A stretch of DNA of 47,870 nucleotides from Magnetococcales bacterium (GTDB lineage: Bacteria > Pseudomonadota > Magnetococcia > Magnetococcales > JADFZT01): assembly GCA_015232395.1 (NCBI GenBank), contig JADFZT010000035.1, positions 1-47,870 of the forward strand, in the 5' to 3' direction. The translations under genes were made by a program, and so were the position numbers. The notes under the pieces were generated by a model that did no database searches, was not told the DNA's origin, and was given only the letters and a program-made list of their open reading frames with translations. How positions within the stretch are numbered: position 1 is the first letter of the stretch; every line of letters begins with the position of its first letter. Of the stretch, positions 22,980-25,002 are shown in pieces.

Positions 22980-23135
22980 GTCCGGAATGGTCGAAGAGAG
23001 GCATGATTTTGAAAAAACAGTGGGAATGGCGTTAACCCGCTTGCGATTTTGGTGGCTTTATCGCATCATTCGCTCGATAATTTTTATTCATCAGTATCCT
23101 AACGTTGCCATCATTCGGCTTTAGGGGAGTTTGAT

Positions 23136-23501
23136 ATGCCGACAACCAGTTTGACTGTGGACCTTCTCGCAGGGGAGAGCATGCGCGTCGTGGGTCCGGG
23201 TTCTGTAGAATTTACCGCTCCGGAAGTGATCCCTGCCATGAAGGGTGCTGCGGGCAAAACCATCGCCGGGCAAGGGGCTGTAGGCAAGGCTGCCGTTACC
23301 AAGGGCGGCATTGTTGCCGGTTCCGGTAAGGGCATGGCTGTTGCCGCCGCTTCTTCCAACACCATCTGGACCGGCAAAGGCTTGAGCCTGGGACTGGGAT
23401 TGGGCCTGGGGGCTTGGGGGCCGGTCATCGTGGTCTCTGCCGCTGCCGCAGGATATTATTATTGGAAAAAACAGCAAACCCCGAAACTTTGGCCCTTTTA
23501 G
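23136..23501 (+). CDS. Mms6-like magnetosome membrane protein (LG repeat)
   Basis: A 121-residue protein with a Gly/Ala/Lys-rich N-terminal half (about 36-70) and a hydrophobic segment starting IWTGKGLSLGLGLGLGAWGP (residues 77-96), then VIVVSAAAAGYYYW. From memory, this is nearly superimposable on the WTGKG-(LG)n-AWGP segment of Mms6 of Magnetospirillum, a tightly bound magnetosome protein that controls magnetite growth; MamD and MamG share similar LG repeats. Mms6 ends in an acidic iron-binding tail, but here the tail is short and basic (KKQQTPKLWPF), so the mineral-binding part is missing. Start ATG 23136 follows AGGGGAG. The next gene has the same WGPVI core plus an acidic tail. Magnetosome membrane location is inferred from homology; a silk-like unrelated membrane peptide is the alternative. 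Confidence 0.75.
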   Translation: MPTTSLTVDLLAGESMRVVGPGSVEFTAPEVIPAMKGAAGKTIAGQGAVGKAAVTKGGIVAGSGKGMAVAAASSNTIWTGKGLSLGLGLGLGAWGPVIVVSAAAAGYYYWKKQQTPKLWPF

Positions 23502-23633
23502 ATAGGAAGCTCTGGCCGCTGGAGAGTCTGCCAGGTGTTTGATATTGGGGATAAAACTGACCTATGCTCCTCACGGCGCCACCTGAGGGGGGATGGGTCA
23601 AAAAATGACTTGTAGAGCGATAGGGAGAGGGAT

Positions 23634-23906
23634 ATGGCCTTAGGTGCTGGCAAAGTGGGGACGGGAGTGGCTTTGCGTAAAGCCCAGATGAACATGCCCG
23701 GTGCATTGAAAGCCGCCGGTAGCAAGGGGATGCTGCCCATTGCCGCCAAAGGGGGATTCATGGGTGTGGCTTGGGGGCCGGTCATTCTGGTAGGTGTGTT
23801 GGCTGCAGTCGGAGTAGGCATTTACAACTATATGAACAAGCCTGGCCAGGAAGCTGTGGAAGAAGTCACCACTACTGAAATCGAGGCGGTGGAAGAGGCT
23901 GGCTGA
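23634..23906 (+). CDS. Small WGPVIL-core protein with acidic tail, Mms6/MamD-like
   Basis: A 90-residue protein with a Gly/Ala/Lys-rich N-terminus (1-44), a hydrophobic segment FMGVAWGPVILVGVLAAVG (42-60) and a strongly acidic tail (71-90) holding seven Glu. The AWGPVIL core matches the preceding Mms6-like protein and the same region of Mms6, and the tail resembles in charge the acidic, iron-binding C-terminus of Mms6. It has no LG repeat. It follows the first gene by 132 bp, has its own ribosome binding site (GAGAGGGAT) and is followed by a strong terminator at 24043, so the pair is likely one transcription unit. Role inferred: membrane peptide that contacts mineral or another acidic-binding partner. 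Confidence in coding is high; in function, moderate. Confidence 0.65.
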   Translation: MALGAGKVGTGVALRKAQMNMPGALKAAGSKGMLPIAAKGGFMGVAWGPVILVGVLAAVGVGIYNYMNKPGQEAVEEVTTTEIEAVEEAG

Positions 23907-24042
23907 CGCCCCTTGGGAAAAATGGACTGCGGCTGGCAGGTTCCGGTTTTTTGCCGGGTATGATACCAGCAGGTTTGATCCTCCGGGCCGGGATGTCGAA
24001 GGGTGGAACCAGAGAGTCGAAGTCATGGAAAGAAACGATTTG

Positions 24043-24064
24043 GGGGGCTTTATGCCCCCTTTTT
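24043..24064 (+). terminator. Intrinsic terminator after the Mms6-like pair
   Basis: GGGGGC at 24043-24048 pairs with GCCCCC at 24054-24059 around a 5-nt loop, followed directly by a run of five T. This is a textbook Rho-independent terminator. It separates the small-protein genes from the ParA gene that starts 60 bp later, so ParA should have its own promoter or depend on read-through. Confidence 0.85.
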
Positions 24065-24126
24065 CATGAATTTTTTTGGAGAGGGCTCTAGACTCATTCC
24101 AGAAAATACGATAAGAAATCGTGAGG

Positions 24127-25002
24127 ATGTATACGGTTTCCATTTTCAATAACAAGGGGGGCGTCGGCAAGTCCACCTTGACGGTCTTTATGGCCGACTT
24201 TTTGGCTACTCTGCGGGTACGGGAGCGGCACCTGCGGGTTTTGGTCATCGACATGGATGCCCAGGGCTCCTGTGCCACCTCCCTGCTGGGCTCCAGCCGC
24301 TCTTCTGAAGCCAAAAGGCAGGGGCATACCTTGGCGCGCCTAGCCAACGCCGTCAAACAGCCTCAGGCGGATATCACCCCTTACCTGATCAAACGCCCCC
24401 GTTCCCGTCCCAAAGGGCGCACCCAGCCCCTACCGGAGTTGTCGGTGGTGGTGCCGGATCGAGGGGAAATTTTCGCCTTTGAAGCCAACCCCCTCCATCA
24501 TCTCACCCTTCTGCGGGATCGTCTGATTCCGGCACTGGAACCCTATTTTGACTTTGTCCTGATCGACCAGGCCGGGAATGTTGATGCCAGGAATCTGATG
24601 GCCATCAACGGTCTGGTGATGAGCGATGCGGTGTTGGTGCCGGTAGAGCCCTCCCGGATCAGCTTGAACGCCATGCCCGACACCATGGAGACGATTCGCC
24701 ACGCTCGGGAACGGGGAGATGGTATTCATCCGGAGCTGTTGGGTCTGGTGCTTAACAAGGCCGACCGCCGCACCAAGCAATTCAAGCTGCATCTGCCCGA
24801 TATTCAGGAGCTGGCCCGGGCCCTTGAGACTCCCTGGTTTGAAAATCATCTACCCAACGCCCCGGGGCTGGCCAGCGCCACCGACGACAGCCTGGCCTTT
24901 GAATCACTCAGGGAGCGTTATGGCGGCTACTATGAGCAGATTCGCAAGGTGGTCAAAGAGGTCCTGGATCGTCTCCGCACGCTTCAGTCTCAGCACAGCT
25001 AG
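24127..25002 (+). CDS. Orphan ParA/Soj-family P-loop ATPase
   Basis: A 291-residue ATPase of the ParA/MinD superfamily. The deviant Walker A motif is clear at the N-terminus (FNNKGGVGKSTL, with the signature Lys in KGG), followed by LRVLVIDMDAQGSCATSLLG (Walker A') and FDFVLIDQAGNVDARNLMAI (Walker B region). ParA ATPases bind DNA or membrane as ATP dimers and position plasmids, chromosomes, carboxysomes or chemoreceptor arrays. No ParB, parS-like repeat or small ParB-type partner is seen beside it, so this is not a standard chromosome-partition pair. A 35-residue Arg/Lys-rich insertion (about 60-100) lies between the A' and B motifs. ATG 24127 gives the normal N-terminus; GTG 24121 is possible. 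Its cargo is unknown; the neighbouring Mms6-like genes make a magnetosome role conceivable. Confidence 0.87.
   Translation: MYTVSIFNNKGGVGKSTLTVFMADFLATLRVRERHLRVLVIDMDAQGSCATSLLGSSRSSEAKRQGHTLARLANAVKQPQADITPYLIKRPRSRPKGRTQPLPELSVVVPDRGEIFAFEANPLHHLTLLRDRLIPALEPYFDFVLIDQAGNVDARNLMAINGLVMSDAVLVPVEPSRISLNAMPDTMETIRHARERGDGIHPELLGLVLNKADRRTKQFKLHLPDIQELARALETPWFENHLPNAPGLASATDDSLAFESLRERYGGYYEQIRKVVKEVLDRLRTLQSQHS

Follow-up and report, generated by a model that had tools for sequence, protein, structure and literature searches.

Two adjacent open reading frames, here called A and B, in a genome of the Magnetococcales probably encode paralogous accessory proteins of the magnetosome membrane; the genes are situated outside the main magnetosome gene clusters, and the acidic tail of B may tune the crystals. 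Judged by sequence, A is a common protein of magnetotactic cocci and of a known kind, B is a short MamD-like protein whose LG repeat is gone, and each belongs to one of two paralogous classes found together in many cocci; B is most likely new as a variant, A of known kind. The window, i.e., the whole stretch of 47,870 nucleotides that was analysed, corresponds to contig C35 of a genome of 4.94 Mb that is 99% complete.

Gene A (positions 23136..23501, forward strand, ATG start) encodes 121 aa and is classified as a basic-tailed LG protein of the Magnetococcia (WPF class). Gene B (23634..23906, forward strand, ATG start) encodes 90 aa. Both ribosome-binding sites, as read from the forward strand, are purine-rich (AGGGGAG at 23123..23129 for A; AGGGAGAGGG at 23622..23631 for B). 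The genes share a strand and are separated by a spacer of 132 bp. Codon preference per codon was +0.19 for A and +0.35 for B in the given frames; no other frame exceeded +0.01, and the spacer stayed at -0.28 or lower in its forward frames. A promoter-like site between the genes (23539-23568) scored at chance level. A terminator-like hairpin of the rho-independent type, followed by a T-run, is located 3' of B on the forward strand (24042..24060). Both reading frames and a terminator-like element after the pair, as proposed in an earlier note on this DNA, are thus borne out. The identified flanking genes are general cellular ones (two CNNM/CorC-type transporters, ParA-like, tpiA, secG, ettA and ilvE), and the claim that the window holds no mamAB-type genes stands as far as the flanking genes and the genome profile matches cover it. 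An orphan ParA/MinD-like ATPase gene (24121-25002) is found immediately beyond the terminator of B; it was considered as a part of the A-B unit and rejected, as it lies past the terminator and has no relative in the 20 A-type loci compared.

Protein A starts with a motif that is conserved in its family (LTVDLLAGESMRVVGPGSVEFTAPE, 23136..23225, forward strand), followed by the LG core IWTGKGLSLGLGLGLGAWGP (23364..23423, forward strand; seen in the translation, the profiles and the alignment) and a basic-aromatic C-terminal tail, KKQQTPKLWPF (23466..23498, forward strand), which is conserved as KKxxxxxWPF, WWPL or WSF in 25 genes; the hydrophobic LG core and basic tail described earlier are therefore present in the translation. 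The AlphaFold model predicts a single helix, probably a membrane helix, at residues 95-117 (23418..23486, forward strand) and is of low confidence elsewhere (mean pLDDT 51.6 for the whole protein, 77 for the best block), including two short N-terminal strands at residues 16-20 and 22-26. The similarity to the Mms6-type core was computed with profile HMMs. Against NCBIfam, A matched MamD (2e-16, 60.1 bits, profile positions 219-301 of 318), Mms6 (1.4e-13, 51.4 bits) and MamG (9.2e-13, 48.3 bits), B matched MamD only, and all scores were below the curated cut-offs (200 bits for Mms6, NF040917; 100 bits each for MamD, NF040916, and MamG, NF040985). The Pfam search gave no accepted match for A or B. 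Against PDB sequences, the LG/membrane segment was paired weakly with Rieske subunits (E about 0.006); these matches were set aside as compositional.

Full-length A-type proteins were found in 23 of the 48 genomes of the class (including G010, where the protein was recovered in two pieces). In a 21-sequence alignment of the family, L10, G13, E14, G20, P21, G22, F26 and W119 are invariant and the LG core is kept; the conserved parts are an N-terminal motif LxxGExxxVxGPGxxxF, the LG core and the tail KKxxxxxWPF (variants WWPL and WSF), and A itself has all three. Of 398 Pseudomonadota genomes searched with the family alignment profile, 45 gave LG-core matches; every one of these belongs to the Magnetococcia, and none of the 350 other Pseudomonadota genomes of an even phylum draw was matched, so that the spread over non-magnetotactic bacteria that would have spoken against the earlier note was not seen; this restriction to Magnetococcia applies to the present profile and draw, which may not include magnetospirilla. 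A contig scan with peptide patterns of A, which were overly specific, returned one named Magnetococcales contig. All 48 class genomes carry a magnetochrome domain, so the A family follows the magnetosome genes. The context of individual members agrees with this: the host genome has a second A-type copy on contig C5 beside mamF-like and mamK genes, the gene order in family f14 is MamD-like, MmsF/MamF-like, A (the MamF/MmsF-like names being based on mutual similarity and position), and in the MC-1-like genome G037 the gene adjoins MamH- and MamE-like reading frames. In family f12, the A-type genes lie apart from any magnetosome gene recognised with a small reference set (L094, L096, L098 and L103, from genomes G022-G025); at L094 and L103 the gene comes after a large reading frame of over 1000 aa. 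With the basic tail kept family-wide and the f12 genes apart from recognised magnetosome genes, neither the tail nor the out-of-cluster site is peculiar to the host.

Protein B, which carries VAWGPVILVGVLAAVGVGIYNYM in its translation, consists in its C-terminal part of a MamD-like membrane segment (AWGPVILVGVLAAVGVGIYNYMN, 23769..23837, forward strand) and an acidic tail with seven Glu and one Lys (KPGQEAVEEVTTTEIEAVEEAG, 23838..23903, forward strand); it lacks the LG repeat, and its AWGPVIL core and seven-Glu tail are confirmed by the translation. The match to the NCBIfam MamD profile (4.5e-6, 26.1 bits over positions 237-309 of 318) is below the cut-off, and the Mms6 profile gave no match. 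For classification, the LG proteins were sorted by simple sequence patterns, and B shows the AWGPxxLVG..AVGVGxYxYM membrane segment of the MamD-like class. An HMM of 35 MamD-like C-terminal segments, gathered with a pattern that demands the LG repeat and so leaves B out, aligned to the membrane segment of B with 42.8 bits, compared with 12.3 for the corresponding A-type model (23 segments); in 2000 shuffles of B the maxima were 11.1 and 8.1, respectively. The best tblastn matches of B were the C-termini of long MamD-like proteins, and B aligns only with the C-terminal 75 residues or so of proteins that mostly measure 240-340 aa. Many proteins of the MamD-like class have an acidic tail (ELEEAIS and the like). 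Among the 47 other Magnetococcia genomes, all from bacterial families other than that of the host, no stand-alone B was detected.

The earlier note had advised a search for mam genes elsewhere in the genome bin. Contig C54 encodes MamB, MamM, MamA and MamQ together with a MamO-type protein; MamH and MamI are located on C6, which has a MamE-like end, a MamE-type protease on C3 and MamT on C83. Since these contigs carry magnetosome genes, the bin is not one devoid of them, which would have counted against the note. MamK is encoded on C5 and again on C36; these two actins (L004:9028-10065 and L005:4359-5387, respectively) each have LG-family genes nearby. Contigs C36 and C47 each encode a full MamD protein; the two scored 304-306 bits against the MamD profile and contain both the LG core and the acidic tail in one protein. 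More LG-family proteins of the genome are encoded on C73, C5, C2 and C8.

In A, a flexible Ala/Gly linker joins the LxAGExxxVxGPG motif to the LG core, and a single predicted membrane helix and the KKxxxxxWPF tail follow. If A behaves like Mms6 (PMC11332177), its LG core and helix would seat it in the magnetosome membrane, and LG packing would allow both self-assembly and assembly with other LG proteins; the Lys/Trp-Pro-Phe tail may then lie at the membrane surface and contact a partner protein or the head groups of lipids. B retains a MamD-type membrane helix and has an enlarged acidic tail, whereas the LG repeat and the large N-terminal part are missing; its tail may bind to iron or to the surface of the crystal and thereby tune crystal growth. 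In Mms6 of AMB-1, whose topology is disputed, the GL/membrane region is required for reaching membranes, conditional localisation is governed by the N-terminal domain, localisation does not need the acidic end, and a fragment of the membrane segment and acidic end alone stays diffuse (PMC11332177). By this analogy A would reach the magnetosome membrane unaided; because the fragment is diffuse, B may not arrive there alone and could need an LG partner. Deletion of the mms6 and mamGFDC genes leaves crystals that still form, with changed size and shape (PMC3197154), so accessory, crystal-shaping roles would be the expected effect of A and B.

The earlier note had taken the pair for a split Mms6, a single functional unit to which A would contribute the LG/membrane half and B the acidic half that binds iron. 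The genes are neighbours with the same orientation and a gap of 132 bp, and their products have complementary tail charges. In two loci of family f6, basic- and acidic-tailed LG genes also lie close together: in G010:C69 a basic-tailed WPF gene is located 6 bp from an acidic-tailed MamD-like LG gene (KQDDDGEES), and in G011:C57 a WPF gene is located near a MamD-like gene with an acidic tail (RAEDAEEAE), with one small LG-family gene between them. However, the basic WPF/WPL/WSF tail is conserved throughout the A family (23 magnetococcal genomes), which means that no acidic end has been lost from A; B falls into the MamD-like class rather than into that of A and is without an Mms6 profile match; the linked MamD-like protein of f14 has a basic tail (KRKA/KRKG); the same genome encodes intact proteins with LG repeat and acidic tail (MamD on C36 and C47); and B is absent from the 47 other genomes. 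A split Mms6 is thus quite improbable. What stands of the Mms6-like pair is that both proteins are of the LG family (Mms6/MamD/MamG) in a magnetosome-bearing genome; that they are halves of one Mms6 does not, and the check on conservation of the pair, advised in the note, found it in no other genome of the 48-genome class set. The side-by-side basic and acidic LG genes of f6 leave room for a partnership, and a heteromeric, charge-complementary pair in which the LG-bearing A carries the LG-less acidic B to the magnetosome membrane is unlikely. If it were true, membrane targeting and mineral binding would be supplied by two separate proteins, and A-B would be one case of a wider coccal pattern of basic-aromatic-tailed beside acidic-tailed LG genes.

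It is also rather unlikely that B is a degenerating, functionless MamD-like remnant, its front part and LG repeat lost, beside a working A. B does match only the C-terminal part of long proteins, has no orthologue and has lost the repeat, but it retains its own ATG, a strong ribosome-binding site and an open frame, its codon usage is on par with that of the neighbouring genes, its acidic tail is extended rather than eroded, and translations of the 132-bp spacer contain no readable MamD remnant. That A and B are general membrane peptides unrelated to magnetosomes, rich in LG and Ala by chance, would fit their low-complexity composition and their site among general cellular genes; it is made highly improbable by an A-family profile that matches only Magnetococcia, all with magnetosome markers, by other family members in mms6-type clusters beside MmsF, MamD or MamK, and by the 2000 shuffles, none of which attained the score of B. 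Accessory proteins of the magnetosome membrane thus remain the preferred reading of the pair.

Magnetotactic cocci, although abundant, are difficult to study, and the names of their crystal-shaping proteins derive from weak similarity to Magnetospirillum. At least four related classes of small proteins are now apparent, i.e., WPF-tailed, SFF-tailed, those with the N-terminal motif only, and MamD-like. The SFF-tailed class of the Magnetococcia shares the N-terminal motif of A, but SGKVLGxSLGAxNPWxLLG replaces the LG core; its members (L111:8156-8530 in G000:C8, L112, L113, L114, L118, L125 and L128) have a basic-aromatic end, KKKRFSFF/SIL, and no Pfam match. Further small proteins (L015:8692-9036 in G000:C2, L088:2997-3359 and L102:9036-9368) have just the LxxGE..GPG motif plus a membrane segment, and often adjoin MamD or MmsF-like genes; the one checked gave no family match. 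A basic-aromatic tail is conserved where Mms6 carries an acidic one. As a natural protein with an acidic tail and no LG repeat, B can be used to test the need for the repeat in magnetosome targeting, a question left open in PMC11332177.

Compared with Mms6 of Magnetospirillum (NF040917), A is alike in its small size, LG core and single membrane segment, and B in the acidic tail that follows its membrane segment. In A the LG repeat leads into a single membrane segment, whereas B lacks the repeat, and neither unites an acidic C-terminus with an LG repeat, since A ends basic and B has no LG. A further differs from Mms6 by its basic WPF tail and its LxAGE..GPG N-terminal motif, and B by the missing profile match. 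Neither reaches 200 bits, a cut-off attained by no protein of six cocci. With MamG (NF040985), A has in common that it is a small LG protein (9.2e-13), although the N- and C-termini differ and the score is under 100 bits. With MamD (NF040916) and the coccal MamD-like proteins beside MmsF, B shares the AWGPVILVG..AVGVGIYxYM segment and the acidic tail, and A shares the LG core with MamD; neither has the long N-terminal part (the profile is matched from about position 219 on in A and 237 on in B), and both score below 100 bits. The MamD-like proteins of Magnetofaba australis IT-1 and Magnetococcus marinus MC-1 (PMC3934378) are probably the versions of A in these organisms, although their genes are inside magnetosome gene regions and that of A is outside. 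Locus 2822 of IT-1 was reported to show 42% identity to the MC-1 protein at 97% coverage (E 1e-18; PMC3934378); the A-type pair from G039 and G037, putatively IT-1 and MC-1 judging in part by gene order, shows 43% identity over the full length (E 1.8e-20), values that match the published comparison, so that the published 'MamD-like' proteins most likely belong to the A family.
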